A DNA stretch of 64,000 nucleotides from the NCBI RefSeq assembly GCF_043290135.1, contig NC_134701.1, forward strand, positions 8,958,001-9,022,000, written 5' to 3'. Positions within the stretch are counted from its first letter, which is position 1. Each line of letters begins with the position of its first letter. Origin of the DNA: Rhipicephalus microplus (lineage: Eukaryota; Arthropoda; Arachnida; Ixodida; Ixodidae). Of this stretch, positions 1 through 64,000 are shown one piece after another. The notes under the pieces are model-generated. The model did not search any database and was not told where the DNA came from. It was given only the letters and a program-made list of their open reading frames with translations. The position numbers and the translations under genes were made by a program.

Positions 1-15
1 GAGTAGAGCAGGACT

Positions 16-89
16 GTCTCCGTGGCGCAATTGGCTAGCGCGATCGGCTGTTAACCGAAATGTTGGAGGTTCGAGCCCACCCGGTGGTG
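16..89 (+). tRNA. tRNA-Asn(GTT)-like gene, unit 1 (reference unit)
   Basis: Folds as a clover-leaf with a 7-bp acceptor stem (GTCTCCG against CGGTGGT: two G-U pairs and one U-U clash), a 4-bp D stem GCGC/GCGC with no mismatch, an anticodon stem ATCGG/CCGAA with an A-A clash at the base, loop CTGTTAA with anticodon GTT, and a T stem GGAGG/CCACC with a central A-A clash around TTCGAGC. There is no intron and no encoded CCA. The length of 74 nt including the discriminator base equals that of animal tRNA-Asn, and the D arm, anticodon loop and T loop are Asn-like. Most units share these traits; later entries give only differences. This unit has an A-to-T change before GTT in the variable region (ATGTT). 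It may be a tRNA or a transcribed pseudo-tRNA. Confidence 0.7.
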
Positions 90-98
90 GTGCGGCGC

Positions 99-107
99 TT
101 TTTTTTT
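99..107 (+). terminator. Pol III T-run terminator of unit 1
   Basis: Nine Ts start 10 nt after the tRNA 3' end. Nearly all units have an equivalent run: eight Ts in most A-type units, six in B-type units, TTTTATTTC in another subtype. All keep at least four Ts, the usual minimum for Pol III termination, so short transcripts of about 90 to 100 nt are expected. Confidence 0.7.
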
Positions 108-164
108 CTTTGGGGCGATAGCTCTGAAGAAATGGCCTGACGGTGGTGAGAGTGGAGCACGATT

Positions 165-238
165 GTCTCCGTTGCGCAATGGGCTAGCGCGATCGGCTGT
201 TAACCGAAAGGTTGTAGTTTCGAGCCCTCCCGGGAGTG
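165..238 (+). tRNA. tRNA-Asn(GTT)-like gene, unit 2 (B-type 3' end)
   Basis: Anticodon GTT. The 3' half is of the second subtype, CCCTCCCGGGAGTGG, followed by TGTGTTGC and six Ts. The A box is altered (TTGCGC instead of TGGCGC), and the T stem reads GTAGT/CCTCC, which lacks the near-universal G53-C61 pair. It is probably a poorer tRNA candidate than unit 1. Confidence 0.55.
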
Positions 239-899: not shown

Positions 900-973
900 G
901 TCTCCATGGCGCAATTGGCTAGCGCGATCGGCTGTTAACCGAAAGGTTGGAGGTTCGAGCCCACCCGGTGGTG
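900..973 (+). tRNA. tRNA-Asn(GTT)-like gene, unit 7
   Basis: Anticodon GTT, with GGTTCGAGCCC as a consensus B box. The acceptor 5' strand ends CCA instead of CCG. Confidence 0.65.
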
Positions 974-5992: not shown

Positions 5993-8572
5993 GTGCGGCG
6001 CTTTTTTTCTGTGGGCTGATAGCTTTGAAGATATGTTGTGATAGTGGTGAGAGTCCAGCAGGACTGTCTCCGTGGCGCAATTGGCTGGCGTGATCGGCTG
6101 TTAACCGAAAAGTTGGAGGTTCGAGCCCACCCGGTGGTGGTGCGGCGCTTTTTTTTCTTTGGGCTGATAGCTTTGAAGATATGTTCTGATGGTGGTGAGA
6201 GTCGAGCAGGACTGTCTCCGTGGCGCAGTTGGCTGGCGCGATCGGCTGTTAACCGAAAGGTTGGAGGTTCGAGCCCACCCGGTGATGGTGTGGCTCTTTT
6301 TTTCTTTGTGCTGATAGCTTTGAAGTTATGTTCTGACGGTGGTGAGAGTTGAGCAGGACTGTCTCCGTGGCGCAATTGGCTAGCGCGATCAGCTGTTAAC
6401 CGAAAGGTTGGAGGTTCGAGCCCACCCGGTGGTGGTGCGGCGCTTTTTTTTTCTTTGGGGCGATAGCTCTGAAGAAATGGTCTGACGGTGGTGAGAGTGG
6501 AGCACGATTGTCTCGGTGGCGCAGTTGGCTAGCGCGATCGGCTGTTTACCGAAAGGTTGGAGGTTCGAGCCCACCCGGTGATGGTGTGCGCTTTTTTTTT
6601 CTTTGTGCTGATAGCTTTGAAGATATGTTCAGATGGTGGTGAGAGTGGAGCTGGACTGTCTCCGTGGCGCAATCGGCTAGCGCGATTGGCTGTTAACCGA
6701 AAAGTTGGAGGTTCGAGCCCACCCGGTGGTGGTGCGGCGCTTTTTTTTCTTTGGGCTGATAGCTTTGAAGATATGTCCTGATGGTGTTGAGAGTGGAGCA
6801 AGAATGTCTCCGTGGCGCAAACGGCTAGCGCGATCGGCTGTTAACCGAAAGGTTGAAGTTTCGAGCCCTCCCGGGAGTGGTGTGTTGCTTTTTTCTTTGT
6901 GGTAATAGCTTTGAAGATATGTTCTGATGGTGGTGAGAGTGGAGCAGGACTGTCTCGGTGGCGCAGTTGGCTAGCGCGATCTGCTGTTAACCGAAAGGTT
7001 GGAGGTTCGAGCCCACCCGGTGATGGTGTGGCGCTTTTTTTTCTTTGTGCTGATAGCTTTGAAGATATGTTCTGATGGTGGTGAGAGTGGAGCAGGTCTG
7101 TCTCCGTGGCGCAATTGGCTAGCGCGATTGGCTGTTAACCGAAAAGTTGGAGGTTCGAGCCCACCCGGTGGTGGTGCGGCGCTTTTTTTTCTTTGGGCTG
7201 ATAGCTTTGAAGATATGTTCTGATGGTGGCGAGAGTAGAGCAGGACTGTCTTCGTGGCACAATTGGCTAGCGCGATCGGCTGTTAACCGAAAGGTTGGAG
7301 GTTCGAGCCCACCCGGTGGTGATGCGGCGCTTTTTTTTCTTTGCGCTGATAGCTTTGAAGATATGTTCTGATGGTGGTGAGAGTGGAGCAAGACTGTCCC
7401 CGTGGCGCAATGGGCTAGCGCGATCGGCTGTAAACCGAAAGGTTGGAGTTTCGAGCTCTCCCGGGAGTGGTGTGTTGCTTTTTTCTTTGCACTGACAGCT
7501 TTGAAGATATGTTCTGATGGTGGTGAGAGTGGAGCTGGACTGTCTCCGTGGCGCAATCGGCTAGAGCGATCGGCTGTTAACCGAAAGATTGGAGGTTCGA
7601 GCCCACCCGGTGGTGGTGCGGCGCTTTTTTTTCTTTGCGCTAATAGCTTTGAAGATATGTCCTGATGGTGTTGAGAGTGGAGCAAGAATGTCTCCGTGGC
7701 GCAATGGGCTAGCGCGATCGGCTGTTAACCGAAACGTTGGAGTTTCGAGCCCTCCCGGGAGTGGTGTGTTGCTTTTTTCTTTGCGCTGATAGCTTTGAAG
7801 ATATGTTCTGATGGTGGTGAGAGTGGAGCACGACTGTCTCCGTGGCGCAGTTGGCTAGCGCGATCGGCTGTTAACCGAAAGGTTGAAGGTTCGAGCCCAC
7901 CCGGTGATGGTGTGGCGCTTTTTTTTCTTTGTGCTGATAGCTTTGAAGATATGTTCTGATGGTGGTGAGAGTGGAGCAGGACTGTCTCCGTTGTGCAATT
8001 GGCTAGCGCGATTTGCTGTTAACCGAAAGGTTGGAGGTTCGAGCCCACCCGGTGGTGGTGCGGTGCTTTTTTTTCTTTGGGCTGATAGCTTTGAAGATAT
8101 GTTCTGATCGTGGTGAGAGTGGAGCAGGACTGTCTCTGTGGCGCAATTGGCTTGCGCGATCGGCTGTTAACCGAAAAGTTGGAGGTTCGAGCCCACCCGG
8201 TGGTGGTGCGGCGCTTTTTTTTCTTTGCGCTGATAGCTTTGAAGATATGTTCTGATGGTGGTGAGAGTGGAGCAAGACTATCCCCGTGGCGCAATGGGCA
8301 AGCGCGATCGGCTGTTAACCGAAAGGTTGGAGTTTCGAGCCCACCCGGTGGTGGTGCAGCGCTTTTATTTCTTTGCGCTGATAGTTTGAAGATATGTTCT
8401 GATGCTGGTGAGAGTAGAGAAAGACTGTCTCCGTGGCGCAATAGGCTAGGGCGATCGGCTGTTAACCGAAAGGTTGGAATTTCGAGCCCTCCCGGCAGTG
8501 GTGTGTAGCTTTTTTCTTTGCGGTAATAGCTTTGAAAATATGTTCTGATGGTGGTGAGAGTGCAGCAAGACT

Positions 8573-8646
8573 GTCTCCGTGGCGCAATGGGCTAGCGCGA
8601 TCGGCTCTTAACCGAGAGGTTGTAGTTTTGAGCCCTCCAGGGAGTG
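8573..8646 (+). tRNA. tRNA-like gene with CTT (Lys) anticodon
   Basis: The loop is CTCTTAA, giving CTT. The stem is followed by CCGAGAGG instead of CCGAAAGG and the B box is TTTTGAGCCC, far from consensus, so it is likely a weak or dead unit. Confidence 0.45.
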
Positions 8647-9460
8647 GTGTGTTGCTTTTTTCTTTGTGGTAATAGCTTTGAAGATATGTTCTGATGGTGG
8701 TGAGAGTGGAGCAGGACTGTCTCCATGGCGCAATTGGCTAGCGCGATTGGCTGTTAACCGAAAGGTTGGAGTTTCGAGCCCACCCGGTGGTGGTGCGGCG
8801 CTTTTTTTTTCTTTGGGCTGATAGCTCTGAAGAAATGTTCTGACGGTGGTGAAAGTTGAGCAGGACTGTCTCCGTGGCGCAATTGGCTAGCGCGATCGGC
8901 TGTTAACCGAAAAGTTGGAGGTTCGAGCCCACCCGGTGGTGGTGCGGCGCTTTTTTTTTCTTTGGGGCGATAGCTCTGAAGAAATGGTCTGACGGTGGTG
9001 AGAGTGGAGCACGATTGTCTCGGTGGCGCAGTTGGCTAGCGCGATCGGCTGTTAACCGAAAGGTTGGAGGTTCGAGCCCACCCGGTGATGGTGTGGCGCT
9101 TTTTTTTCTTTGTGCTGATAGCTTTGAAGATATGTTCTGATGGTGGTGAGAGTGGAGCAGGACTGTCTCCGTGGCGCCATTGGCTAGCGCGATTGGCTGT
9201 TAACCGAAAAGTTGGAGGTTCGAGCCCACCCGGTGGTGGTGCGGCGCTTTTTTTTCTTTGGGCTGATAGCTTTGAAGATATGTTCTGATGGTGGCGAGAG
9301 TAGAGCAGGACTGTCTACGTGGCGCAATTGGCTTGCGCGATCGGCTGTTAACCGAAAGGTTGGAGGTTCGAGCCCACCCGGTGGTGGTGCAGAGCTTTTT
9401 TTTCTTTGCGCTGAAAGCTTTGAAGATATGATCTGATGGTGGTGAGAGTGGAGCAAGACT

Positions 9461-9534
9461 GTTCTCGTGGCGCAATGAGCTAGCGCGATCGGCTATTAAC
9501 CGAAAGGTTGGAGTTTCGAGCCCTCCCGGGAGTG
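9461..9534 (+). tRNA. tRNA-Asn-like gene with ATT anticodon
   Basis: Starts GTTCTCG with loop CTATTAA. ATT still reads Asn codons by pairing, and more widely if A34 is edited to inosine, which is not known for tRNA-Asn. ATT units are a recurrent subtype, usually with GAGCTAGCGC in the D arm and the B-type CCCGGGAGTGG end. Confidence 0.5.
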
Positions 9535-10195
9535 GTGTGTTGCTTTTTTCTTTGCGCTGATAGCTTTGAAGATATGTTCTGATGGTGGTGAGAGTGGAGC
9601 ACGACTGTCCCCGTGGCAAAATGAGCTAGCGCGATCGGCTATTAACCGAAAGGTTGGAGTTTCGAGCCCTCCCGGGAGTGGTGTGTTGCTTTTTTCTTTG
9701 CACTGATAGCTTTGAAGATATGTTCCGATGGTGGTGAGAGCGGAGCAGGACTGTCTCCGTGGCGCAATTGGCTAGCGCGATCGGCTGTTAACCGAAAAGT
9801 TGGAGATTCGAGCCCACCCGGTGGTGGTGCAGCGCTTTTATTTCTTTGGGCTGATAGCTTTGAAGATATGTTCTGATTGTGGTGAGAGTGGAGCAGGACT
9901 GTCTCCGTGGCACAATCGGCTAGCGCGATCGGCTGTTAACCGAAAGGTTGGAGGTTCGAGCCCACCCGGTGGTGGTGCGCCGCTTTTTTTCTGTGGGCTG
10001 ATAGCTTGGAGGATATGTTCTGATGGTGGTGAGAGTAGAGCAGGACTGTCTCCGTGACGAAATTGGCTAGCGTGATCGGCTGTTAACCGAAAAGTTGGAG
10101 GTTCGAGCCCACCCGGTGGTGGTGCGGCGCTTTTTTTTCTTTGGGCTGATAGCTTTGAAGATATGTTCTGATGGTGGTGAGAGTAGAGCAGGACT

Positions 10196-10269
10196 GTCTC
10201 CGTGGCGCAATTGGCTAGCGCGATCGGCTGTCAACCGAAAGGTTGGAGTTTCGAGCCCTCCCGGGAGTG
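10196..10269 (+). tRNA. tRNA-like gene with GTC (Asp) anticodon
   Basis: The loop is CTGTCAA, with GGAGTTTCGAGCCCTCC in the T arm. The type recurs at about 12701, 19039, 20508, 23014, 24484 and 41567, mostly as block duplicates. Confidence 0.5.
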
Positions 10270-12750
10270 GTGTGTTGCTTTTTTCTTTGCGCTGATAGCT
10301 TTGAAGATATGTTCTGATTGTGGTGAGAGTGGAGCACGACTGTCTCCGTGGCGCAGTTGGCTAGCGCGATCGGCTGTTAACCGAAAGGTTGGAGGTTCGA
10401 GCCCACCCGGTGATGGTGTGGCGCTTTTTTTTCTTTGTGCTGATAGCTTTGAAGATATGTTCTGATGGTGGTGAGAGTGGAGCAGGACTGTCTCCGTTGT
10501 GCAATTGGCTAGCGCGATTGGCTGTTAACCGAAAGGTTGGAGGTTCGAGCCCACCCGGTGGTGGTGCGGTGCTTTTTTTTCTTTGGCTGATAGCTTTGAA
10601 GATATGTTCTGATCGTGGTGAGAGTGGAGCAGGACTGTCTCTGTGGCGCAATTGGCTTGCGCGATCGGCTGTTAACCGAAAAGTTGGAGGTTCGAGCCCA
10701 CCCGGTGGTGGTGCGGCGCTTTTTTTTCTTTGCGCTGATAGCTTTGAAGATATGTTCTGATGGTGGTGAGAGTGGAGCAAGACTATCCCCGTGGCGCAAT
10801 GGGCAAGCGCGATCGGCTGTTAACCGAAAGGTTGGAGTTTCGAGCCCACCCGGTGGTGGTGCAGCGCTTTTATTTCTTTGCGCTGATAGTTTGAAGATAT
10901 GTTCTGATGCTGGTGAGAGTAGAGAAAGACTGTCTCCGTGGCGCAATAGGCTAGGGCGATCGGCTGTTAACCGAAAGGTTGGAATTTCGAGCCCTCCCGG
11001 CAGTGGTGTGTAGCTTTTTTCTTTGCGGTAATAGCTTTGAAAATATGTTCTGATGGTGGTGAGAGTGCAGCAAGACTGTCTCCGTGGCGCAATGGGCTAG
11101 CGCGATCGGCTCTTAACCGAGAGGTTGTAGTTTTGAGCCCTCCAGGGAGTGGTGTGTTGCTTTTTTCTTTGTGGTAATAGCTTTGAAGATATGTTCTGAT
11201 GGTGGTGAGAGTGGAGCAGGACTGTCTCCATGGCGCAATTGGCTAGCGCGATTGGCTGTTAACCGAAAGGTTGGAGTTTCGAGCCCACCCGGTGGTGGTG
11301 CGGCGCTTTTTTTTTCTTTGGGCTGATAGCTCTGAAGAAATGTTCTGACGGTGGTGAAAGTTGAGCAGGACTGTCTCCGTGGCGCAATTGGCTAGCGCGA
11401 TCGGCTGTTAACCGAAAAGTTGGAGGTTCGAGCCCACCCGGTGGTGGTGCGGCGCTTTTTTTTTCTTTGGGGCGATAGCTCTGAAGAAATGGTCTGACGG
11501 TGGTGAGAGTGGAGCACGATTGTCTCGGTGGCGCAGTTGGCTAGCGCGATCGGCTGTTAACCGAAAGGTTGGAGGTTCGAGCCCACCCGGTGATGGTGTG
11601 GCGCTTTTTTTTCTTTGTGCTGATAGCTTTGAAGATATGTTCTGATGGTGGTGAGAGTGGAGCAGGACTGTCTCCGTGGCGCCATTGGCTAGCGCGATTG
11701 GCTGTTAACCGAAAAGTTGGAGGTTCGAGCCCACCCGGTGGTGGTGCGGCGCTTTTTTTTCTTTGGGCTGATAGCTTTGAAGATATGTTCTGATGGTGGC
11801 GAGAGTAGAGCAGGACTGTCTACGTGGCGCAATTGGCTTGCGCGATCGGCTGTTAACCGAAAGGTTGGAGGTTCGAGCCCACCCGGTGGTGGTGCAGCGC
11901 TTTTTTTTCTTTGCGCTGAAAGCTTTGAAGATATGATCTGATGGTGGTGAGAGTGGAGCAAGACTGTTCTCGTGGCGCAATGAGCTAGCGCGATCGGCTA
12001 TTAACCGAAAGGTTGGAGTTTCGAGCCCTCCCGGGAGTGGTGTGTTGCTTTTTTCTTTGCGCTGATAGCTTTGAAGATATGTTCTGATGGTGGTGAGAGT
12101 GGAGCACGACTGTCCCCGTGGCAAAATGAGCTAGCGCGATCGGCTATTAACCGAAAGGTTGGAGTTTCGAGCCCTCCCGGGAGTGGTGTGTTGCTTTTTT
12201 CTTTGCACTGATAGCTTTGAAGATATGTTCCGATGGTGGTGAGAGCGGAGCAGGACTGTCTCCGTGGCGCAATTGGCTAGCGCGATCGGCTGTTAACCGA
12301 AAAGTTGGAGATTCGAGCCCACCCGGTGGTGGTGCAGCGCTTTTATTTCTTTGGGCTGATAGCTTTGAAGATATGTTCTGATTGTGGTGAGAGTGGAGCA
12401 GGACTGTCTCCGTGGCACAATCGGCTAGCGCGATCGGCTGTTAACCGAAAGGTTGGAGGTTCGAGCCCACCCGGTGGTGGTGCGCCGCTTTTTTTCTGTG
12501 GGCTGATAGCTTGGAGGATATGTTCTGATGGTGGTGAGAGTAGAGCAGGACTGTCTCCGTGACGAAATTGGCTAGCGTGATCGGCTGTTAACCGAAAAGT
12601 TGGAGGTTCGAGCCCACCCGGTGGTGGTGCGGCGCTTTTTTTTCTTTGGGCTGATAGCTTTGAAGATATGTTCTGATGGTGGTGAGAGTAGAGCAGGACT
12701 GTCTCCGTGGCGCAATTGGCTAGCGCGATCGGCTGTCAACCGAAAGGTTG
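10246..12750 (+). repeat. 17-unit higher-order repeat (2505 bp), copy 2
   Basis: Very close copy of the preceding block. The few differences seen include C to A in the tail near 9392 compared with 11896, and a lost G in the spacer near 10585. Confidence 0.8.
11078..11151 (+). tRNA. tRNA-like gene with CTT (Lys) anticodon (block duplicate)
   Basis: Copy of the unit at 8573, 2505 bp away. A related CTT unit with CCGAAAGG lies at 17416-17489. Confidence 0.45.
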
Positions 12751-13350
12751 GAGTTTCGAGCCCTCCCGGGAGTGGTGTGTTGCTTTTTTCTTTGCGCTGA
12801 TAGCTTTGAAGATATGTTCTGATTGTGGTGAGAGTGGAGCACGACTGTCTCCGTGGCGCAGTTGGCTAGCGCGATCGGCTGTTAACCGAAAGGTTGGAGG
12901 TTCGAGCCCACCCGGTGGTGGTGTGGCGCTTTTTTTTCTTTGTGCTGATAGCTTTGAAGATATGTTCTGATGGTGGTGAGAGTGGAGCAGGACTGTCTCC
13001 GTTGTGCAATTGGCTAGCGCGATTGGCTGTTAACCGAAAGGTTGGAGGTTCGAGCCCACCCGGTGGTGGTGCGGTGCTTTTTTTTCTTTGGCTGATAGCT
13101 TTGAAGATATGTTCTGATCGTGGTGAGAGTGGAGCAGGACTGTCTCTGTGGCGCAATTGGCTTGCGCGATCGGCTGTTAACCGAAAAGTTGGAGGTTCGA
13201 GCCCACCCGGTGGTGGTGCGGCGCTTTTTTTTCTTTGCGCTGATAGCTTTGAAGATATGTTCTGATGGTGGTGAGAGTGGAGCAAGACTATCCCCGTGGC
13301 GCAATGGGCAAGCGCGATCGGCTGTTAACCGAAAGGTTGGAGTTTCGAGC
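12751..13350 (+). repeat. 17-unit higher-order repeat, partial copy 3 (~4 units)
   Basis: Continues the 2505-bp periodicity for about 600 bp, then switches near 13350 to another unit order at the 3' end of a tRNA-like gene. Confidence 0.7.
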
Positions 13351-39805: not shown

Positions 39806-39815
39806 CTAGTTTTCC
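39806..39815 (-). promoter_or_regulatory. Candidate -1 ribosomal frameshift site at the gag stop
   Basis: On the minus strand the gag frame reads ACG GAA AAC TAG. A slip of one base back gives GGA AAA CTA and enters the pol frame, which is open from there to the pol stop. The heptamer GGAAAAC has a good A-site slip (AAC to AAA) but an imperfect P-site slip, so it departs from the classic X XXY YYZ pattern. No downstream pseudoknot was worked out. Confidence 0.5.
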
Positions 39816-44950: not shown

Positions 44951-45704
44951 TGTCTTCGTGGCGCAATTGGCTAGCGCGATCGGCTGTTAACCGAAAGGTT
45001 GGAGTTTCGAGCCCACCCGGTGGTGGTGCGGCGCTTTTATTTCTTTGCGCTGATAGTTTGAAGATATGTTCTGATGCTGGTGAGAGTAGAGAAAGACTGT
45101 TTCCGTGGCGCAATAGGCTAGCGCGATCGGCTGTTAACCGAAAGGTTGGAATTTCGAGCCCTCCCGGCAGTGGTGTGTTGCTTTTTTCTTTGCGGTAATA
45201 GCTTTGAAAATATGTTCTGATGGTGGTGAGAGTGCAGCAGGACTGTCTTCGTGGCGCAATTGGCTAGCGCGATCGGCTGTTAACCGAAAGGTTGGAGTTT
45301 CGAGCTCTCCCGGGAGTGGTGTGTTGCTTTTTTCTTTGCACTGACAGCTTTGAAGATATGTTCTGATGGTGGTGAGAGTGGAGCAGGACTGTCTCCGTGG
45401 CGCAATTGGCTAGCGCGATCGGCTGTTAACCGAAAGGTTGGAGGTTCGAGCCCACCCGGTGGTGGTGCGGCGCTTTTTTTCTTTGCGCTAATAGCTTTGA
45501 AGATATGTCCTGATGGTGTTGAGAGTGGAGCAAGACTGTCTCCGTGGCGCAATTGGCTAGCGCGATCGGCTATTAACCGAAAGGTTGGAGGTTCGAGCCC
45601 ACCCGGTTGTGGTGTGGCGCTTTTTTTTTCTTTGGGGCAATAGCTCTGAAGAAATGGTCTGAAGGTGGTGAGAGTGGAGCACGATTGTCTCGGTGGCGCA
45701 GTTG
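44951..45704 (+). repeat. Short mosaic link, with a recurrent ~0.4-kb cassette
   Basis: The stretch around 45280-45640 (a GAGCTCTCCCGGGAGTGG unit, a GTGCGGCGC unit and a GGTTGTGGTGTGGCGC unit in order) recurs at about 50869, 54105 and 61188, marking exchange over long distance within the array. Confidence 0.55.
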
Positions 45705-48700
45705 GCTAGTGCGATCGGCTGTTAACCGAAAGGTTGGAGGTTCGAGCCCACCCGGTGGTGGTGTGGCGCTTTTTTTTCTTTGGGCTGATAGCTTTGAAGA
45801 TATGTTCTGATGGTGGTGAGAGTAGAGCAGGACTGTCTCCGTGGCGCAATTGGCTAGCGCGATTGGCTGTTAACCGAAAGGTTGGAGGTTCGAGCCCACC
45901 CGGTGGTGGTGCGGTGCTTTTTTTTTTTGGGCTGATAGCTTTGAAGATATGTTCTGATCGTGGTGAGAGTGGAGCAGGACTGTCTCTGTGGCGCAATTGG
46001 CTTGCGCGATCGGCCTTAACCGAAAAGTTGGAGGTTCGAGCCCACCCGGTGGTGGTGCGGCGCTTTTTTTTCTTTGCGCTGATAGCTTTGAAGATATGTT
46101 CTGATGGTGGTGATAGTGGAGCAAGACTATCCCCGTGGCGCAATGGGCAAGCGCGATCGGCTGTTAACCGAAAGGTTGGAGTTTCGAGCCCACCCGGTGG
46201 TGGTGCGGCGCTTTTATTTCTTTGCGCTGATAGTTTGAAGATATGTTCTGATGCTGGTGAGAGTAGAGAAAGACTGTCTCCGTGGCGCAATAGGCTAGCG
46301 CGATCGGCTGTAAACCGAAAGGTTGGAATTTCGAGCCCTCCCGGCAGTGGTGTGTTGCTTTTTTCTTTGCGGTAATAGCTTTGAAAATATGTTCTGATGG
46401 TGGTGAGAGTGCAGCAAGACTGTCTCCGTGGCGCAATGGGCTAGCGCGATCGGCTGTTAACCGAAAGGTTGTAGTTTTGAGCCCTCCCGGGAGTGGTGTG
46501 TTGCTTTTTTCTTTGTGGTAATAGCTTTGAAGATATGTTCTGATGGTGGTGAGAGTGGAGCAGGACTGTCTCCATGGCGCAATTGGCTAGCGCGATTGGC
46601 TGTTAACCGAAAGGTTGGAGTTTCGAGCCCACCCGGTGGTGGTGCGGCGCTTTTTTTTTCTTTGGGCTGATAGCTCTGAAGAAATGTTCTGACGGTAGTG
46701 AGAGTTGAGCAGGACTGTCTCCGTGGCGCAATTGGCTAGCGCGATCGGCTGTTAACCGAAGAGTTGGAGGTTCGAGCCCACCCGGTGGTGGTGCGGCGCT
46801 TTTTTTTCTTTGGGGCGATAGCTCTGAAGAAATGGTCTGACGGTGGTGAGAGTGGAGCACGATTGTCTCGGTGGCGCAGTTGGCTAGCGCGATCGGCTGT
46901 TAACCGAAAGGTTGGAGGTTCGAGCCCACCCGGTGATTGTGTGGCGCTTTTTTTTCTTTGTGCTGATAGCTTTGAAGATATGTTCTGATGGTGGTGAGAG
47001 TGGAGCAGGACTGTCTCCGTGGCGCAATTGGCTAGCGCGATTGGCTGTTAACCGAAAAGTTGGAGGTTCGAGCCCACCCGGTGGTGGTGCGGCGCTTTTT
47101 TTTTCTTTGGGCTGATAGCTTTGAAGATATGTTCTGATGGTGGCGAGAGTAGAGCAGGACTGTCTTCGTGGCGCAATTGGCTAGCGCGATCGGCTGTTAA
47201 CCGAAAGGTTGGAGGTTCGAGCCCCCCCGGTGGTGGTGCAGCGCTTTTTTTTCTTTGCGCTGAAAGCTTTGAAGATATGTTCTGATGGTGGTGAGAGTGG
47301 AGCAAGACTGTCCTCGTGGCGCAATGAGCTAGCGCGATCGGCTATTAACCGAAAGGTTGGAGTTTCGAGCCCTCCCGGGAGTGGTGTGTTGCTTTTTTCT
47401 TTGCGCTGATAGCTTTGAAGATATGTTCTGATGGTGGTGAGAGTGGAGCACGACTGTCCCCGTGGCGCAATGAGCTAGCGCGATCGGCTATTAACCGAAA
47501 GGTTGGAGTTTCGAGCCCTCCCGGGAGTGGTGTGTTGCTTTTTTCTTTGCACTGATAGCTTTGATGATATGTTCCGATGGTGGTGAGAGTGGAGCAGGAC
47601 TGTCTCCGTGGCGCAATTGGCTAGCGCGATCGGCTGTTAACCGAAAGTTTGGAGATTCGAGCCCACCCGGTGGTGGTGCAGCGCTTTTATTTCTTTGGGC
47701 TGATAGCTTTGAAGATATGTTTTGATGGTGGTGAGAGTGGAGCAGGACTGTCTCCGTGGCACAATCGGCTAGCGCGATCGGCTGTTAACTGAAAGGTTGG
47801 AGGTTCGAGCCCAACAGGTGGTGGTGCGCCGCTTTTTTTCTGTGGGCTGATAGCTTGGAAGATATGTTCTGATGGTGGTGAGAGTAGAGCAGGACTGTCT
47901 CCGTGACGCAATTGGCTAGCATGATCGGCTGTTAACCGAAAAGTTGGAGGTTCGAGCCCACCCGGTTGTGGTGCGGCGCTCTTTTTTTCTTTGGGCTGAT
48001 AGCTTTGAAGATATGTTCTGATGGTGGGGAGAGTAGAGCAGTACTGTCTCCGTGGCGCAATTGGCTAGCGCGATCGGCTGTTAACCGAAAGGTTGAAGTT
48101 TTGAGCCCTCCCGGGAGTGGTGTGTTGCTTTTTTCTTTGCGCTGATAGCTTTGAAGATATGTTATGATGGTGGTGAGAGTGGAGCACGACTGTCTCCGTG
48201 GCGCAGTTGGCTAGCGCGATCGGCTGTTAACCGAAAGGTTGGAGGTTCGAGCCCACCCGGTGATGGTGTGGCGCTTTTTTTTCTTTGTGGTGATAGCTTT
48301 GAAGATATGTTCTGATGGTGGTAAGAGTGGAGAAGGACTGTCTCCGTTGTGCAATTGGCTAGCGCGATTGGCTGTTAACCGAAAGGTTGGAGGTTCGAGC
48401 CCACCCGGTGGTGGTGCGGTGCTTTTTTTTCTTTGGGCTGATAGCTTTGAAGATATGTTCTGATCGTGGTGAGAGTGGAGCAGGACTGTCTCCGTGGCGC
48501 AATTGGCTTGCGCGATCGGCTGTTAACCGAAAGGTTGGAGGTTCGAGCCCACCCGGTGGTGGTGCGGCGCTTTTTTTTCTTTGCGCTGATAGCTTTGAAG
48601 ATATGTTCTGATGGTGGTAAGAGTGGAGCAAGACTGTCCCCGTGGCGCAATGGGCAAGCGCGATCGGCTGTTAACCGAAAGGTTGGAGTTTCGAGCCCAC

Positions 48701-48930
48701 CCGGTGGTGGTGCGGCGCTTTTATTTCTTTGCGCTGATAGTTTGAAGATATGTTCTGATGCTGGTGAGAGTAGAGAAAGACTGTTTCCGTGGCGCAATAG
48801 GCTAGCGCGATCGGCTGTTAACCGAAAGGTTGGAATTTCGAGCCCTCCCGGCAGTGGTGTGTTGCTTTTTTCTTTGCGGAAATAGCTTTGAAAATATGTT
48901 CTGATGGTGGCGAGAGTGCAGCAGGACTGT
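45705..48930 (+). repeat. Right-arm higher-order block, copy 2
   Basis: Shares with copy 1 the anticodon-arm deletion unit, CCCCCCGGTGG tails (near 43248 and 47223) and GTTAACTGAAAGG units (near 43812 and 47787). It differs by scattered substitutions, and the first two units are of another type. Confidence 0.7.
45982..46054 (+). pseudogene. tRNA-Asn-like unit with 1-nt loss in the anticodon arm (fourth copy)
   Basis: Same change, 3973 bp after the copy at 42009, in the second block of the right arm. Confidence 0.6.
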
Positions 48931-53814: not shown

Positions 53815-56800
53815 ACCGAAAGGTTGGAGTTTCGAGCCCAACCGGTGGTGGTGCGGCGCTTTTATTTCTTTGCGCTGATAGTTTGAAGATATGTTCTGAT
53901 GCTGGTGAGAGTAGAGAAAGACTGTTTCCGTGGCGCAATAGGCTAGCGCGATCGGCTGTTAACCGAAAGGTTGGAATTTCGAGCCCTCCCGGCAGTGGTG
54001 TGTTGCTTTTTTCTTTGCGGTAATAGCTTTGAAAATATGTTCTGATGGTGGTGAGAGTGCAGCAGGACTGTCTTCGTGGCGCAATTGGCTAGCGCGATTG
54101 GCTGTTAACCGAAAGGTTGGAGTTTCGAGCTCTCCCGGGAGTGGTGTGTTGCTTTTTTCTTTGCACTGACAGCTTTGAAGATATGTTCTGATGGTGGTGA
54201 GAGTGGAGCAGGACTGTCTCCGTGGCGCAATTGGCTAGCGCGATCGGCTGTTAACCGAAAGGTTGGAGGTTCGAGCCCACCCGGTGGTGGTGCGGCGCTT
54301 TTTTTCTTTGCGCTAATAGCTTTGAAGATATGTCCTGATGGTGTTGAGAGGGGAGCAAGACTGTCTCCGTGGCGCAATTGGCTAGCGCGATCGGCTATTA
54401 ACCGAAATGTTGGAGGTTCGAGCCCACCCGGTTGTGGTGTGGCGCTTTTTTTTTCTTTGGGGCAATAGCTCTGAAGAAATGGTCTGACGGTGGTGAGAGT
54501 GGAGCACGATTGTCTCGGTGGCGCAGTTGGCTAGTGCGATCGGCTGTTAACCGAAAGGTTGGAGGTTCGAGCCCACCCGGGAGTGGTGTGTTGCTTTTTT
54601 CTTTGTGGTAATAGCTTTGAAGATATGTTCTGATGGTGGTGAGAGTGGAGCAGGACTGTCTCCATGGCGCAATTGGCTAGCGCGATTGGCTGTTAACCGA
54701 AAGGTTGGAGTTTCGAGCCCACCCGGTGGTAGTGCGGCGCTTTTTTTTCTTTGGGGCGATAGCTCTGAAGAAATGGTCTGACGGTGGTGAGAGTGGAGCA
54801 CGATTGTCTCGGTGGCGCAGTTGGCTAGCGCGATCGGCTGTTAACCGAAAGGTTGGAGGTTCGAGCCCACCCGGTGATGGTGTGGCGCTTTTTTTTCTTT
54901 GTGCTGATAGCTTTGAAGATATGTTCTGATGGTGGTGAGAGTGGAGCAGGACTGTCTCTGTGGCGCAATTGGCTAGCGCGATTGGCTGTTAACCGAAAAG
55001 TTGGAGGTTCGAGCCCACCCGGTGGTGGTGCGGCGCTTTTTTTTCTTTGGGCTGATAGCTTTGAAGATATGTTCTGATGGTGGCGAGAATAGAGCAGGAC
55101 TGTCTACGTGGCGCAATTGGCTTGCGCGATCGGCTGTTAACCGAAAGGTTGGAGGTTCGAGCCCACCCGGTGGTGGTGCAGCGCTTTTTTTTCTTTGCGC
55201 TGAAAGCTTTGAAGATATGTTCTGATGGTGGTGAGAGTGGAGCAAGACTGTTCTCGTGGCGCAATGAGCTAGCGCGATCGGCTATTAACCGAAAGGTTGG
55301 AGTTTCGAGCCCTCCCGGGAGTGGTGTGTTGCTTTTTTCTTTGCGCTGGTAGCTTTGAAGATATGTTCTGATGGTGGTGAGATTGGAGCACGACTGTCCC
55401 CGTGACGCAATTGGCTAGCGTGATCGGCTGTTAACCGAAAAGTTGGAGGTTCGAGCCCACCCGGTGGTGGTGCGGCGCTTTTTTTTCTTTGGGCTGATAG
55501 CTTTGAAGATATGTTCTGATGGTGGTGAGAGTAGAGCAGGACTGCCTCCGTGGCGCAATTGGCTAGCGCGATCGGCTGTTAACCGAAAGGTTGGAGTTTC
55601 GAGCCCTCCCGGAAGTGGTGTGTTGCTTTTTTGTTTGCGCTGATAGCTTTGAAGATATGTTCTGATGGTGGTGAGAGTGGAGCAGGACTGTCTCCGTGGC
55701 ACAATCGGCTAGCGCGATCGGCTGTTAACCGAAAGGTTGGAGGTTCGAGCCCACCCGGTGGTGGTGCGCCGCTTTTTTTTTCTTTGTGCTGATAGCTTTG
55801 AAGATATGTTCTGATGGTGGTGAGAGTGGAGCAGAACTGTCTCCGTTGTGCAATTGGCTATCGCGATTGGCTGTTAACCGAAAGGTTGGAGGTTCGAGCC
55901 CACCCGGTGGTGGTGCGGTGCTTTTTTTTCTTTGGGCTGATAGCTTTGAAGATATGTTCTGATCGTGGTGAGAGTGGAGCAGGACTGTCTCCGTGGCGCA
56001 ATTGGCTTGTGCGATCGGCTGTTAACCGAAAGGTTGGAGGTTCGAGCCCACCCGGTGGTGGTGCGGCGCTTTTTTTCTTTGCGCTGATAGCTTTGAAGAC
56101 ATGTTCTGATGGTGGTGAGAGTGGAGCAAGACTGTCCCCATGGCGCAATGGGCAAGCGCGATCGGCTGTTAACCGAAAGGTTGGAGTTTCGAGCCCACCC
56201 GGTGGTGGTGCGGCGCTTTTATTTCTTTGCGCTGATAGTTTGAAGATATGTTCTGATGGTGGTGAGACTGGAGAAAGACTGTCTCCGTGGCGCAATAGGC
56301 TAGCGCGATCGGCTGTTAACCGAAAGGTTGGAATTTCGAGCCCACCCGGTGGTGGTGCGGCGCTTTTTTTTCTTTGGGCTGATAGCTTTGAAGATATTTT
56401 CTGATGGTGGCGAGAGTAGAGCAGGACTGTCTTCGTGGCGCAATTGGCTAGCGCGATCGGCTGGTAACCGAAAGGTTGGAGGTTCGAGCCCACCCGGTGG
56501 TGGTGCAGCGCTTTTTTTTCTTTGCGCTGAAAGCTTTGAAGATATGTTCTGATGGTGGTGAGAGTGGAGAAGACTGTCCCCGTGGCGCTATGAGCTAGCG
56601 CGATCGGCTGTTAACCGAAAGGTTGGAATTTCGAGCCCTCCCGGGAGTGGTGTGTTGCTTTTTTCTTTGCACTGATAGCTTTGAAGATATGTTCCGTTGG
56701 TGATGAGAGTGGAGCAGGACTGTCTCCGTGGCGCAATTGGCTAGCGCGATCGGCTGTTAACCGAAAGGTTGGAGATTCGAGCCCACCCGGTGGTGGTGCA

Positions 56801-57213
56801 GCGCTTTTATTTCTTTGGGCTGATAGCTTTGAAGATATGTTCTGATGGTGGCGAGAGTAGAGCAGGACTGTCTTCGTGGCGCAATTGGCTACCGCGATCG
56901 GCTGTTAACCGAAAGGTTGGACGTTCGAGCCCACCCGGTGGTGGTGCAGCGCTTTTTTTCTTTGCGCTGAAAGCTTTGAAGATATGTTCTGATGGTGGTG
57001 AGAGTGGAGAAGACTGTCCCCGTGGCGCTATGAGCTAGCGCGATCGGCTGTTAACCGAAAGGTTGGAATTTCGAGCCCTCCCGGGAGTGGTGTGTTGCTT
57101 TATTCTTTGCACTGATAGCTTTGAAGATATGTTCCGTTGGTGGTGAGAGTGGAGCAGGACTTTCTCCGTGGCGCAATTGGCTAGCGCGATCGGCTGTTAA
57201 CCGAAAGGTTGGA
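53815..57213 (+). repeat. Large higher-order block, copy 1
   Basis: Matches 60898-64000 at an offset of 7083 bp up to about 54700, and of 6787 bp from about 54965 on. Private markers include CTTTATTCTTTGC (near 57098 and 63885) and GAAGACATGTTC (near 56096 and 62883). Confidence 0.8.
56429..56502 (+). tRNA. tRNA-like gene with GGT (Thr) anticodon
   Basis: The loop is CTGGTAA, giving GGT. The body is otherwise a standard array unit starting GTCTTCG. The block duplicate is at 63216-63289. Confidence 0.5.
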
Positions 57214-58931
57214 GATTCGAGCCCACCCGGTGGTGGTGCAGCGCTTTTATTTCTTTGGGCTGATAGCTTTGAAGATATGTTGTGATGATGGTGAGAGTGG
57301 AGCAGGACTGTCTCCGTGGCACAATCGGCTAGCGCGATTGGCTGTTAACCGAAAGGTTGGAGGTTCGAGCCCACACGGTGGTGGTGCGGCGCTTTTATTC
57401 TTTGGGGCGATAGCTCTGAAGAAATGGTCTGACGGTGGTGAGAGTGGAGCACGATTGTCTCGGTGGCGCAGTTGGCTAGTGCGATCGGCTGTTAACCGAA
57501 AGGTTGGAGGTTCGAGCCCACCCGGTGATGGTGTGGCGCTTTTTTTTCTTTGTGCTGATAGCTTTGAAGATATGTTCTGATGGTGGTGAGAGTGGAGCAG
57601 GACTGTCTCCGTGGCGCAATTGGCTAGCGCGATCGGCTGTAAATCGAAAGGTTGGAGTTTCGAGCTCTCCCGGGCGTGGTGTGTTGCTTTTTTCTTTGCA
57701 CTGACAGCTTTGAAGATATGTTCTGATGGTGGTGAGAGTGGAGCAGGACTGTCTCCGTGGCACAATGGGCTAGCGCGATCGGCTGTTAACCGAAAGGTTG
57801 GAGTTTCGAGCCCACCCGGTGGTGGTGCGGCGCTTTTTTTTCTTTGGGCTGATAGCTCTGAAGAAATGTTCTGACGGTGGTGAGAGTTGAGCAGGACTGT
57901 CTCCGTGGCGCAATTGGCTAGCGCGATCGGCTGTTAACCGAAAGGTTGGAGGTTCGAGCCCACCCGGTGGTGGTGCGGCGCTTTTTTTTCCTTTGGGGCG
58001 ATAGCTCTGAAGAAATGGTCTGACGGTGGTGAGAGTGGAGCACGATTGTCTCGGTGGCGCAGTTCGCTAGCGCGATCGGCTGTTAACCGAAAGGTTGGAG
58101 GTTCGAGCCCACCCGGTGATGGTGTGGCGATTTTTTTTCTTTGTGCTGATAGCTTTGAAGATATGTTCTGATGGTGGTGAGAGTGGAGCAGGACTGTCTC
58201 CGTGGCGCAATTGGCTAGCGCGATTGGCTGTTAACCGAAAAGTTGGAGGTTCGAGCCCACCCGGTGGTGGTGCGGCGCTTTTTTTTCTTTGGGCTGATAG
58301 CTTTGAAGATATGTTCTGATGGTGGCGAGAGTAGAGCAGGACTGTCTTCGTGGCGCAATTGGCTAGCGCGATTGGCTGTTAACCGAAAGGTTGGAGGTTC
58401 GAGCCCACCCGGTGGTGGTGCGGTGCTTTTTTTCTTTGGGCTGATACCTTTGAAGATATGTTCTGAAGGTGGTGAGAGTGGAGCAGGACTGTCTCCGTGG
58501 CGCAATTGGCTTGCGCGATCGGCTGTTCACCGAAAAGTTGGAGGCTCGAGCCCACCCGGTGGTGGTGCGGCGCTTTTTTTCCTTTGGGCTGAGAGCTTTG
58601 AAAATATGTTCTGATGGTGGTGAGAGTGGAGCAGGACTGTCTCCGTGGCGCAATTGGCTAGCGCGATCGGCTGTTAACCGAAAGGTTCGAGTTTCGAGCC
58701 CTCCCGGGAGTGGTGTGTTGTTTTTTTCTTTGTGCTGATAGCTTTGAAGATATGTTCTGATGGTGGTGAGAGTGGAGCAGGACTGTCTCCGTGGCGCAAT
58801 TGCCTAGCGCGATTGGCTGTTAACCGAAAGGTTGGAGTTTCGAGCCCACCCGGTGGCGGTGCGGCGCTTTTTTTCTTTGGGCTGATAGCTCTGAAGAAAT
58901 TTTCTGACGGTGGTGAGAGTTGAGCAGGACT

Positions 58932-59005
58932 GTCTCCGTGGCGCAATTGGCTAGCGCGATCGGCTGGTAACCGAAAGGTTGGAGGTTCGAGCCCACCCGG
59001 TGGTG
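58932..59005 (+). tRNA. tRNA-like gene with GGT (Thr) anticodon and long tail
   Basis: The loop is CTGGTAA on a unit with consensus A and B boxes. The tail has the 6-nt insertion GCGGCGGCAGCGC. It is duplicated at 60706-60779. Confidence 0.5.
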
Positions 59006-60705
59006 GTGCGGCGGCAGCGCTTTTTTTTTCTTTGGGGCAATAGCTCTGAAAAAATGGTCTGACGGTGGTGAGAGTGGAGCACGATTGTCTCCGTGGCGCA
59101 GTTGGCTAGCGCGATCGGCTGTTAACCGAAAGGTTGGAGGTTCGAGCCCACCCGGTGATGGTGTGTTGCGTTTTTCTTTGTGGTAATAGCTTTGATGATA
59201 TGTTCTGATGGTGGTGAGAGTGGAGCAGGACTGTCTCCATGGCGCGATTGGCTAGCGCGATCGGCTGTTAACCGAAAGGTTGGAGGTTCGAGCCCACCCG
59301 GTGGTGGTGCGGCGCTTTTTTTCTTTGGGGCGATAGCTCTGAAGAACTGGTCTGACGGTGGTGAGAATGGAGCACGATTGTCTCCGTGGCGCAATGGGCT
59401 AGCGCGATCGGCTGTTAACCGAAAGGTTGGAGTTTCGAGCCCTCCCGGGAGTGGTGTGTTGCTTTTTTCTTTGTGGTAATAGCTTTGGAGATATGTTCTG
59501 ATGGTGGTGAGAGTGGAGCAGGACTGTCTCCATGGCGCAATTGGCTAGCGCGATCGGCTGTTAACCGAAAGGTTGGAGTTTCGAGCCCACCGGGTGGTGG
59601 TGCGGCGCTCTTTTTTCTTTGGGCTGATAGCTCTGAAGAAATGTTCTGACGGTGGTGAGAGTTGAGCAGGACTGTCTCTGTGGCGCAATTGGCTAGCGCG
59701 ATCGGCTGTTAACCGAAAGGTTGGAGGTTCGAGCCCACCCGGTGGTGGTGCGGCGCTTGTTTTTTCTTTGAAGCGATAGCTCTGAAGAAATGACCTGACG
59801 GTGGTGAGAGTGGAGCACGATTGTCTCCGAGGCGAAGTTGGCTGGCGCGATCGGCTGTTAACCGAAAGGTTGGAGGTTCAAGCCCACACGGTAATGGTGT
59901 GGCGCTTTTTTTCTTTGTGCTGATAGCTTTGAAGATATGTTCTGAAGGTGGTGAGAGTGGAGCAGGGCTGTCTCCGTGGCGCTATTGGCTTGCGCCATCG
60001 GCTGTTAACCGAAAGGTTGGAGGTTCGAGCCCACCCGGTGGTGGTGCGGCGCTTTTTTTTTCTTTGGGGTGATAGCTCTGAAGAAATGGTCTGACGGTGG
60101 TGAGAGTGCAGCACGACTGTTCCGTGGCGCAAAGGGCTAGCGCGATCGGCTGTTAACCGAAAGGTTGGAGTTTCGAGAACTCCCGGGAGTGGTGTGTTGC
60201 TTTTTTCTTTGCACTGATAGCTTTGAAGATATGTTCTGATGGTGGTGAGAGTGGAGCAGGACTGTCTCCGTGGCGCAATTGGCTAGCGCGATTGGCTGTT
60301 AACCGAAAAGTTTGAGGTTCGAGCCCACCCGGTGGTGGTGCGGCGCTTTTTTTTCTTTGGGCTGATAGCTTTGAAGATATGTTCTGATGGTGGCGAGAGT
60401 AGAGCAGGACTGTCTTCGTGGCGCAATTGGCTAGCGCGATCGGCTGTTAACCGAAAGGTTGGAGGTTCGAGCCCACCCGGTGGTGGTGCAGCGCTTTTTT
60501 TTCTTTGCGCTGAAAGCTTTGAAGATATGTTCTGATGGTGGTGAGAGTGGAGACGACTGTCCCCGTGGCGCTATGAGCTAGCGCGATTGGCTGTTAACCG
60601 AAAGGTTGGAGTTTCGAGCCCACCCGGTGGTGGTGCGGCGCTTTTTTTCTTTGAGCTGATAGCTCTGAAGAAATTTTCTGACGGTGGTGAGAGTTGAGCA
60701 GGACT

Positions 60706-60779
60706 GTCTCCGTGGCGCAATTGGCTAGCGCGATCGGCTGGTAACCGAAAGGTTGGAGGTTCGAGCCCACCCGGTGGTG
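60706..60779 (+). tRNA. tRNA-like gene with GGT (Thr) anticodon and long tail (copy)
   Basis: Same anticodon and tail insertion as 58932-59005, 1774 bp downstream. Confidence 0.5.
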
Positions 60780-63215
60780 GTGCGGCGGCAGCGCTTTTTT
60801 TTCTTTGGGGCAATAGCTCTGAAAAAATGGTCTGACGGTGGTGAGAGTGGAGCACGATTGTCTCCGTGGCGCAGTTGGCTAGCGCGATCGGCTGTTAACC
60901 GAAAGGTTGGAGTTTCGAGCCCACCCGGTGGTGGTGCGGCGCTTTTATTTCTTTGCGCTGATAGTTTGAAGATATGTTCTGATGCTGGTGAGAGTAGAGA
61001 AAGACTGTTTCCGTGGCGCAATAGGCTAGCGCGATCGGCTGTTAACCGAAAGGTTGGAATTTCGAGCCCTCCCGGCAGTGGTGTGTTGCTTTTTTCTTTG
61101 CGGTAATAGCTTTGAAAATATGTTCTGATGGTGGTGAGAGTGCAGCAGGACTGTCTTCGTGGCGCAATTGGCTAGCGCGATTGGCTGTTAACCGAAAGGT
61201 TGGAGTTTCGAGCTCTCCCGGGAGTGGTGTGTTGCTTTTTTCTTTGCACTGACAGCTTTGAAGATATGTTCTGATGGTGGTGAGAGTGGAGCAGGACTGT
61301 CTCCGTGGCGCAATTGGCTAGCGCGATCGGCTGTTAACCGAAAGGTTGGAGGTTCGAGCCCACCCGGTGGTGGTGCGGCGCTTTTTTTCTTTGCGCTAAT
61401 AGCTTTGAAGATATGTCCTGATGGTGTTGAGAGGGGAGCAAGACTGTCTCCGTGGCGCAATTGGCTAGCGCGATCGGCTATTAACCGAAATGTTGGAGGT
61501 TCGAGCCCACCCGGTTGTGGTGTGGCGCTTTTTTTTTCTTTGGGGCAATAGCTCTGAAGAAATGGTCTGACGGTGGTGAGAGTGGAGCACGATTGTCTCG
61601 GTGGCGCAGTTGGCTAGTGCGATCGGCTGTTAACCGAAAGGTTGGAGGTTCGAGCCCACCCGGGAGTGGTGTGTTGCTTTTTTCTTTGTGGTAATAGCTT
61701 TGAAGATATGTTCTGATGGTGGTGAGAGTGGAGCAGGACTGTCTCCATGGCGCAATTGGCTAGCGCGATTGGCTGTTAACCGAAAAGTTGGAGGTTCGAG
61801 CCCACCCGGTGGTGGTGCGGCGCTTTTTTTTCTTTGGGCTGATAGCTTTGAAGATATGTTCTGATGGTGGCGAGAATAGAGCAGGACTGTCTACGTGGCG
61901 CAATTGGCTTGCGCGATCGGCTGTTAACCGAAAGGTTGGAGGTTCGAGCCCACCCGGTGGTGGTGCAGCGCTTTTTTTTCTTTGCGCTGAAAGCTTTGAA
62001 GATATGTTCTGATGGTGGTGAGAGTGGAGCAAGACTGTTCTCGTGGCGCAATGAGCTAGCGCGATCGGCTATTAACCGAAAGGTTGGAGTTTCGAGCCCT
62101 CCCGGGAGTGGTGTGTTGCTTTTTTCTTTGCGCTGGTAGCTTTGAAGATATGTTCTGATGGTGGTGAGATTGGAGCACGACTGTCCCCGTGACGCAATTG
62201 GCTAGCGTGATCGGCTGTTAACCGAAAAGTTGGAGGTTCGAGCCCACCCGGTGGTGGTGCGGCGCTTTTTTTTCTTTGGGCTGATAGCTTTGAAGATATG
62301 TTCTGATGGTGGTGAGAGTAGAGCAGGACTGCCTCCGTGGCGCAATTGGCTAGCGCGATCGGCTGTTAACCGAAAGGTTGGAGTTTCGAGCCCTCCCGGA
62401 AGTGGTGTGTTGCTTTTTTGTTTGCGCTGATAGCTTTGAAGATATGTTCTGATGGTGGTGAGAGTGGAGCAGGACTGTCTCCGTGGCACAATCGGCTAGC
62501 GCGATCGGCTGTTAACCGAAAGGTTGGAGGTTCGAGCCCACCCGGTGGTGGTGCGCCGCTTTTTTTTTCTTTGTGCTGATAGCTTTGAAGATATGTTCTG
62601 ATGGTGGTGAGAGTGGAGCAGAACTGTCTCCGTTGTGCAATTGGCTATCGCGATTGGCTGTTAACCGAAAGGTTGGAGGTTCGAGCCCACCCGGTGGTGG
62701 TGCGGTGCTTTTTTTTCTTTGGGCTGATAGCTTTGAAGATATGTTCTGATCGTGGTGAGAGTGGAGCAGGACTGTCTCCGTGGCGCAATTGGCTTGTGCG
62801 ATCGGCTGTTAACCGAAAGGTTGGAGGTTCGAGCCCACCCGGTGGTGGTGCGGCGCTTTTTTTCTTTGCGCTGATAGCTTTGAAGACATGTTCTGATGGT
62901 GGTGAGAGTGGAGCAAGACTGTCCCCATGGCGCAATGGGCAAGCGCGATCGGCTGTTAACCGAAAGGTTGGAGTTTCGAGCCCACCCGGTGGTGGTGCGG
63001 CGCTTTTATTTCTTTGCGCTGATAGTTTGAAGATATGTTCTGATGGTGGTGAGACTGGAGAAAGACTGTCTCCGTGGCGCAATAGGCTAGCGCGATCGGC
63101 TGTTAACCGAAAGGTTGGAATTTCGAGCCCACCCGGTGGTGGTGCGGCGCTTTTTTTTCTTTGGGCTGATAGCTTTGAAGATATTTTCTGATGGTGGCGA
63201 GAGTAGAGCAGGACT

Positions 63216-63289
63216 GTCTTCGTGGCGCAATTGGCTAGCGCGATCGGCTGGTAACCGAAAGGTTGGAGGTTCGAGCCCACCCGGTGGTG
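63216..63289 (+). tRNA. tRNA-like gene with GGT (Thr) anticodon (block duplicate)
   Basis: Copy of 56429-56502 at the 6787-bp offset. Confidence 0.5.
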
Positions 63290-63948
63290 GTGCAGCGCTT
63301 TTTTTTCTTTGCGCTGAAAGCTTTGAAGATATGTTCTGATGGTGGTGAGAGTGGAGAAGACTGTCCCCGTGGCGCTATGAGCTAGCGCGATCGGCTGTTA
63401 ACCGAAAGGTTGGAATTTCGAGCCCTCCCGGGAGTGGTGTGTTGCTTTTTTCTTTGCACTGATAGCTTTGAAGATATGTTCCGTTGGTGATGAGAGTGGA
63501 GCAGGACTGTCTCCGTGGCGCAATTGGCTAGCGCGATCGGCTGTTAACCGAAAGGTTGGAGATTCGAGCCCACCCGGTGGTGGTGCAGCGCTTTTATTTC
63601 TTTGGGCTGATAGCTTTGAAGATATGTTCTGATGGTGGCGAGAGTAGAGCAGGACTGTCTTCGTGGCGCAATTGGCTACCGCGATCGGCTGTTAACCGAA
63701 AGGTTGGACGTTCGAGCCCACCCGGTGGTGGTGCAGCGCTTTTTTTCTTTGCGCTGAAAGCTTTGAAGATATGTTCTGATGGTGGTGAGAGTGGAGAAGA
63801 CTGTCCCCGTGGCGCTATGAGCTAGCGCGATCGGCTGTTAACCGAAAGGTTGGAATTTCGAGCCCTCCCGGGAGTGGTGTGTTGCTTTATTCTTTGCACT
63901 GATAGCTTTGAAGATATGTTCCGTTGGTGGTGAGAGTGGAGCAGGACT

Positions 63949-64000
63949 TTCTCCGTGGCGCAATTGGCTAGCGCGATCGGCTGTTAACCGAAAGGTTGGA
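63949..64000 (+). tRNA. tRNA-Asn(GTT)-like gene, cut by window end
   Basis: Starts TTCTCCG (first base T instead of G). The D arm and GTT anticodon are present; the T arm is cut off by the window edge. Confidence 0.5.

Follow-up and report, generated by a model that had tools for sequence, protein, structure and literature searches.

The stretch of DNA analysed here, referred to as the window, comprises 64,000 nucleotides of contig C2 of Rhipicephalus microplus (C2:8958001-9022000); the assembly totals 3.26 Gb in 1,202 contigs, and C2 spans 301 Mb. The window contains a head-to-tail array of ~147-bp units on one strand, each composed of a tRNA-Asn-like sequence and a spacer, with the following features.

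1-36090, forward strand: left part of the array, from nhmmer unit matches, alignment columns and Tandem Repeats Finder (TRF), with a T-run terminator per unit.
900-973, forward strand: example of the tRNA-Asn-like part, 38.4 bits with Rfam.
8116-13273, forward strand: 17-unit higher-order repeat of 2,505 bp, with 99.9% identity between copies.
17400-26385, forward strand: 27-unit higher-order repeat of 3,975 bp, with 99.6% identity between two overlapping 5.0-kb stretches.
29478-34484, forward strand: 20-unit higher-order repeat of 2,946 bp, with 99.9% identity between matching stretches.
41243-64000, forward strand: right part of the array, from nhmmer and the alignment, the final unit truncated by the window end.
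43023-48912, forward strand: 27-unit higher-order repeat, with 99.3% identity between matching stretches.
54938-63935, forward strand: 46-unit higher-order repeat of 6,787 bp, with 99.9% identity between matching stretches of 2.2 kb.
55544-55617 and 62331-62404, forward strand: the joint best-scoring tRNA-like units, 50.6 bits each.

TRF reported a period of 148 and 433.5 copies across positions 1-64000, in rows that bridge a retrotransposon insertion. A search with nhmmer, using a profile built from the units, returned 401 matches, all on the forward strand; after removal of the unit truncated at the window end and of a fragment of 20 columns, 399 full units remained. The search left 5,147 bases of the window uncovered. 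In the 148-column alignment of the 399 units the tRNA-like part occupies columns 17-90 and the T-run columns 100-107. A 27-base pattern from the spacer occurred 178 times in the window versus 0 in 100 shuffles. The short monomer in a long head-to-tail array identifies a satellite, and the derivation from a tRNA is indicated by matches to Rfam RF00005, nearly all spanning model positions 1-71, and by an intact relative on contig C1. The original prediction of about 400 tRNA-Asn-like units in tandem on one strand agrees with these counts; its description of the array as uninterrupted does not stand, since a long terminal repeat (LTR) retrotransposon occupies positions 36091-41238. Open frames in the array were also considered as genes and rejected: a 250-amino-acid antisense frame found 52 proteins (E≤0.001, 7,996 candidates scored), and all 52 carry an antisense tRNA-Asn motif.

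The mean pairwise identity of monomers was 0.893 (~89%), and 265 of the 399 units were distinct in sequence. Blocks of units recur 17, 20, 27 or 46 units away at identities of 99.3-99.9%, compared with 88.9-90.5% when the same blocks are shifted by one unit. Divergent monomers within near-identical blocks are typical of satellite arrays that have undergone repeated unequal exchange, and the combination of ~89% identical monomers inside 99.3-99.9% identical blocks identifies the array as a higher-order satellite. Since identity within loci (0.86-0.91) was close to identity between those loci and the window (0.87-0.90), local homogenisation is weak.

None of the 399 window units forms an intact cloverleaf, and every unit has at least two broken stem pairs (2 mismatches in 10 units, 3 in 170, 4 in 154, 5 in 54, 6 in 10 and 7 in 1). 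Pairing at 27-43 is lost in 397 of the 399 units, with A.A in 395, and 305 of 399 have a non-standard 4-69 pair. The T stem carries at least one mismatch in 392 of 399 units, most commonly A51.A63 (277 units), followed by non-standard pairing at 53-61 (175). Outside the window, units with fewer than two stem mismatches numbered 0 of 932 non-overlapping units, which remained after overlapping loci were removed from 1,020 and matches shorter than 141 profile columns were excluded; A27 was present in 995 of the 1,020. The best window unit scored 50.6 bits with Rfam, versus 72.6 bits for tRNA-Asn of Escherichia coli and 67.7 bits for an intact, dispersed tRNA-Asn(GTT) gene of the same genome (C1:249482145-249482218). 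The latter has no mismatched pairs, T at position 27 and A51 paired with U63, and is likely a relative of the ancestor of the satellite; by comparison with it, A51 is probably ancestral and A27, A63 and T53 probably represent losses in the satellite. Independent evidence that T27 is the normal state comes from 53 of the 54 antisense motifs in the 52 database proteins, which carry T at this position, where the satellite has A. A string with the normal T27 occurs 1,823 times genome-wide; among the 100 places listed, the only C1 match was the intact gene, and two strings examined inside satellite blocks were both in broken satellite units. The anticodon was GTT in 330 of the 399 units, with ATT in 39, GTC in 10, GTA in 9, GGT in 4, CTT in 3 and a gapped anticodon in 4, and the discriminator was G in 392 of 399. 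The units are not expected to supply tRNA-Asn.

The tRNA part showed no significant sign of selection, its variability being about equal to that of the spacer. Diversity in the window was 0.092 in the tRNA part versus 0.112 in the spacer (p=0.41), rare variants per site were 1.03 versus 0.97 (p=0.66), and diversity over distinct sequences from the window and elsewhere was 0.105 versus 0.114 (p=0.69). Stem pairs whose consensus is standard, 18 in all, were broken in a mean of 18.8 cells; for 4,596 complementary but unrelated column pairs the figure was 19.4. Pairs with changes on both sides numbered 4 in the true structure versus 5-9 across six slid controls. Cells were paired at 82% in the true structure versus 37-44% in the slid ones, a difference expected of any tRNA-derived sequence.

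Several results weigh against regarding the units as decayed and unselected. ARAGORN called 287 tRNAs in the 64 kb, all on the forward strand, and RF00005 gave 394 matches at E≤1, of which 346 reached the gathering score of 29 and 2 reached 50. Changes on both sides of a pair were found in 1.44 cells for stem pairs versus 0.44 for random pairs (p=0.08), and diversity of the anticodon arm was 0.062 versus 0.114 for the spacer (p=0.14). The T-run is well conserved (pi 0.046), although an 8-T run tolerates single changes. Units moreover share ancestry within higher-order repeats, and all p-values are indicative only.

A run of at least four T residues follows 397 of the 399 window units. The A box was found in 305 of 399 and the strict B box (GGTTCGANNCC) in 209 of 399, being absent from 190; A box, strict B box and terminator occur together in 164 of 399 window units and in 344 of 932 elsewhere. 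Since a minority of units keep both strict boxes and nearly all keep the terminator, some contact of TFIIIC or RNA polymerase III (Pol III) with the units is possible.

The array extends far beyond the window. Five multi-megabase blocks were mapped by sampling loci rather than by a continuous scan, and the satellite family was found on ten contigs in one search listing.

C2, ~5.2-10.5 Mb: forward strand up to 9.9 Mb and reverse strand at 10.3 and 10.5 Mb; 32 of 33 sampled loci positive.
C3, ~289.2 Mb to the contig end: 6 of 6 positions positive from 289.18 Mb; misses at 288.5, 287 and 283 Mb.
C4, ~174.6 to at least 178 Mb of 243 Mb: from pattern matches at 174.6 Mb up to 178.0 Mb; misses at 174.0 and 174.4 Mb.
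C13, 0.5-8 Mb: 10 of 10 sampled loci positive; misses at the start, at 9 Mb and at seven points beyond.
C14, 1.3-6.6 Mb: 5 of 6 sampled loci positive at 1.3-6.25 Mb, with more matches to 6.6 Mb.

The single miss inside the C2 block was at 10.1 Mb, and the satellite was absent at 11 C2 loci outside it (0, 1, 3, 5, 5.05, 5.1, 10.7, 10.9, 11, 13 and 20 Mb) and at the far end of C2. On C14 misses were recorded at 0, 0.7, 7 and 7.5 Mb and at six points from 8 Mb on. Contigs C29, C38, C39, C100 and C127 also carry the satellite. None of 20 loci on C1 and C3-C11, sampled 3 and 7 Mb in from the contig start, was positive, and 3 of 20 loci near far contig ends or beside the C4 block were positive, all on C3 and C4. 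The satellite was thus not seen on every chromosome-sized contig. From a mean coverage near 0.85 over the 33 C2 loci, C2 is roughly estimated to hold ~30,000 units and the five blocks together on the order of 100,000.

Four of the five mapped blocks lie near contig ends and the C4 block is interstitial. The first 1.5 kb of C5 and of C11 consist entirely of TTAGG repeat, as does the last 1.5 kb of C2, and three of the four near-end blocks adjoin a satellite that contains TTAGG. Thus, with the exception of C4, the tRNA satellite sits mostly in terminal repeat domains. In the genome of Ixodes scapularis tandem repeats have been located at one, presumed centromeric, chromosome end (PMC4748124). 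The interstitial C4 region (C4:174604340-175415979) is rich in T27 units, perhaps representing an older subfamily or a scaffolding error.

A second satellite family, partly with degenerate TTAGG patches, was observed in terminal regions of several contigs. It was found on C2 at 1, 3, 5, 5.05, 5.1 and 10.7 Mb, at the start and 3 Mb of C1, at 236 and 240 Mb of C4, at the end of C5, at the start of C6, at 510 Mb of C11 and at the starts of C13 and C14 (loci L011-L013, L030, L034, L050, L060, L070, L071, L088, L090, L118, L119, L122, L128 and L141). At L013 the TTAGG patches are ~1.3 kb apart.

The results are very probably explained by a tRNA-Asn(GTT)-derived higher-order satellite and not by a bank of 400 working tRNA genes. 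A tRNA-Asn gene with ~74 bp of flank would have lost stem pairing and may have spread as a ~147-bp monomer by unequal exchange or similar copying, giving rise to higher-order repeats and multi-megabase blocks. The units now evolve as satellite monomers rather than as tRNA genes. The blocks are probably heterochromatic and silent. The megasatellite of one tRNA-Asn type put forward in the original prediction is borne out, and is strengthened by the blocks elsewhere in the genome. One tRNA-Asn-like unit does underlie the satellite, and the associated notion of a single anticodon fails on six further categories besides GTT. Likewise, the T-run is retained by nearly every unit as had been proposed, but the complete promoter and terminator are not. 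The idea that the array could dwarf the normal Asn gene set was not supported: no unit in the window, and none of the 932 compared elsewhere, had fewer than two broken stem pairs, and no significant selection on the tRNA part was found.

The units could alternatively have been kept for a role in chromatin, with TFIIIC and Pol III factors organising heterochromatin, boundaries or the kinetochore end. Consistent with such a role are the 164 window units and 344 units elsewhere that retain both boxes and the terminator, the 147-bp monomer, the position of four of the five blocks near contig ends with three beside TTAGG-containing satellite, and the proposal that a human tRNA tandem repeat at 1q23.3 is a boundary element (PMC4041453). 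However, the lower variability of the A and B boxes (diversity 0.100 and 0.105) relative to the spacer (0.114) was not significant (p=0.73), and the strict B box is missing from 190 of 399 units. The C4 block, at 174.6-178 of 243 Mb, is not near an end unless misplaced, and the 0 of 20 loci at 3 and 7 Mb of C1 and C3-C11 also argue against this role, which is considered unlikely. A broader scenario is also unlikely: in several tick chromosomes, dead tRNA-Asn genes would make up much of the terminal repeat domains, possibly on the kinetochore side, the remaining TFIIIC sites would give them a chromosomal role, and target-selective retroelements would land at two fixed unit positions.

An origin from a tandemised tRNA-derived short interspersed element (SINE), instead of from a tRNA gene, has precedent in the SINE-derived satellites of squamates, among which gecko repeats average 143 and 151 nt (PMC10702118). 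The unit of the tick satellite nevertheless consists of a tRNA and a short flank carrying a Pol III terminator; no SINE body or tail derived from a long interspersed element (LINE) was noticed by eye, no search having been aimed at one, and this origin is judged improbable. A bank of working tRNA-Asn genes serving a high demand for translation, such as that of blood feeding, would accord with the GTT anticodon in 330, the discriminator G in 392 and the terminator in 397 of 399 units, and with a 20-30-fold expansion of tick tRNA genes described in a 2026 preprint (PMC13105059). Yet no intact cloverleaf occurs among 399 and 932 units and the tRNA columns are without significant constraint. The preprint set its score cut-off at 50, applied a confidence filter, and found a rise uniform over isotypes, which is not what one Asn satellite would produce. 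A working bank is highly improbable. Expansion of a few units by the assembler, which the original prediction had named as its refutation and to which the 99.3-99.9% identity of several blocks and the end of C3 within the array might point, is scarcely credible given 265 distinct units of 399, occurrence on ten contigs in one listing and a retrotransposon with its own target duplication splitting one unit, although exact copy numbers of near-identical blocks could be wrong.

The spacer pattern gave 0 matches in each of the viral_contigs and genome_contigs collections, results of little weight as both are described as containing no animal genomes, and a metazoan tRNA-Asn pattern gave 0 matches in viral_contigs. 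No description of a tick tRNA satellite was found among the titles listed in the literature searched, most subscription journals being outside its coverage, nor in the text of PMC2893602 and PMC12341941. The RMR-1 repeat of R. microplus is a ~149-bp subtelomeric repeat, which resembles the satellite in monomer size and subterminal position. Ixodes ISR-2 was ruled out as the same repeat as the satellite, its unit being 95-99 bp (PMC4748124).

Satellites related to tRNA are known in amphibians and reptiles (PMC10702118). The PolIII/TAN (Hirt) repeat of the newt Cynops is likewise tandem with a tRNA-like part, and is transcribable in vitro; its unit is ~360 nt and related to tRNA-Glu, whereas the tick unit is ~147 bp, related to tRNA-Asn, half tRNA and organised in megabase higher-order blocks. 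Xenopus OAX/satellite I and Rana/polIII repeats are also tandem with a tRNA-derived or tRNA-like segment, but have longer units in which only a segment or a weak similarity is of tRNA type. The satellites of squamates are similar in monomer size and in a Pol III promoter-bearing origin, and differ in being derived from SINEs. In Arabidopsis the tRNA Ser-Tyr-Tyr cluster (PMC12308677) likewise brings tandem tRNA genes together with heterochromatin and is mostly silent across tissues; however, root cap tRNA production and an effect of deletion indicate that its genes are functional. The human variable number tandem repeat at 1q23.3 (PMC4041453) is also a tandem tRNA-bearing repeat, but with a 7.3-kb unit, less than 6% of it tRNA, and 9-43 units per allele.

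The satellite offers a clear case in which almost a whole tRNA gene has been turned into a megabase-scale higher-order satellite, and allows one to ask whether TFIIIC sites help satellites to spread or mark chromosome ends. In addition, the 287 ARAGORN calls in 64 kb illustrate that tRNA counts from automatic finders can be too high in such genomes.

The retrotransposon that splits the array in the window comprises the following features.

36091-41238, reverse strand: Ty3/mdg4-type LTR retrotransposon, from the LTR pair, the target-site duplication ATAT and Pfam domains.
36091-36264, reverse strand: 3' LTR, from comparison of the LTR pair.
36300-39833, reverse strand: open frame with protease, reverse transcriptase (RT) and integrase, from Pfam on pieces.
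39806-41209, reverse strand: open frame with Retrotrans_gag, from Pfam on pieces and a protein search with the gag piece.
41065-41238, reverse strand: 5' LTR, from comparison of the LTR pair.

The LTRs are 174 bp each with 1 difference, the target duplication ATAT is 4 bp, and the element is young. Pfam searches with pieces of the element identified RVT_1, integrase, Retrotrans_gag and aspartyl protease, the order protease-RT-integrase within the frame following from the piece coordinates; together with the LTRs and target duplication, these domains assign it to the Ty3/mdg4 LTR retrotransposons. The empty site, represented by the joined 30+30-base flanks, matches 139 places in the window with up to 3 substitutions. 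The gag piece found 60 proteins, of which all named ones were from hard ticks and the rest unnamed, the best named one being from R. microplus (74% identical); the 120 listed of 6,612 matches to the RT (pol) piece include ticks, spiders and others.

Insertions adjoining the only ATAT of the unit (columns 130-133) were observed at window position 36091 and at three C2 loci (L015:4867, L017:~5541 and L024:~3300). These four come from at least three different sequences, and those at L017 and L024 match the RT piece of the window element at 72-75%. With these recurrent positions, the satellite could serve as a natural assay of retroelement target choice. A non-LTR element encoding endonuclease and RT domains was observed within the D-loop/A-box of the unit at L019:5622, L022:7202 and L078:75. 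Its 5' ends seen in sampled DNA were all in the D-loop (3 of 3), at the same position within 2 bp, and a 3' junction in L082 falls elsewhere in the unit. Identity between the left flanks of L019 and L022 was 0.92-0.93 across 150-300 bp, falling to 0.908 at 600 bp and 0.893 at 1,200 bp, with a background of 0.875-0.920 (12 comparisons, 600 bp); this points to, but does not establish, separate insertions of these two copies. Some non-LTR elements are known to target genes for tRNA or other RNAs, and the element found here is possibly tRNA-targeting. Its junction pattern occurs 7 times genome-wide, on C2, C5, C6 and C79, with 4 of the 7 outside C2.

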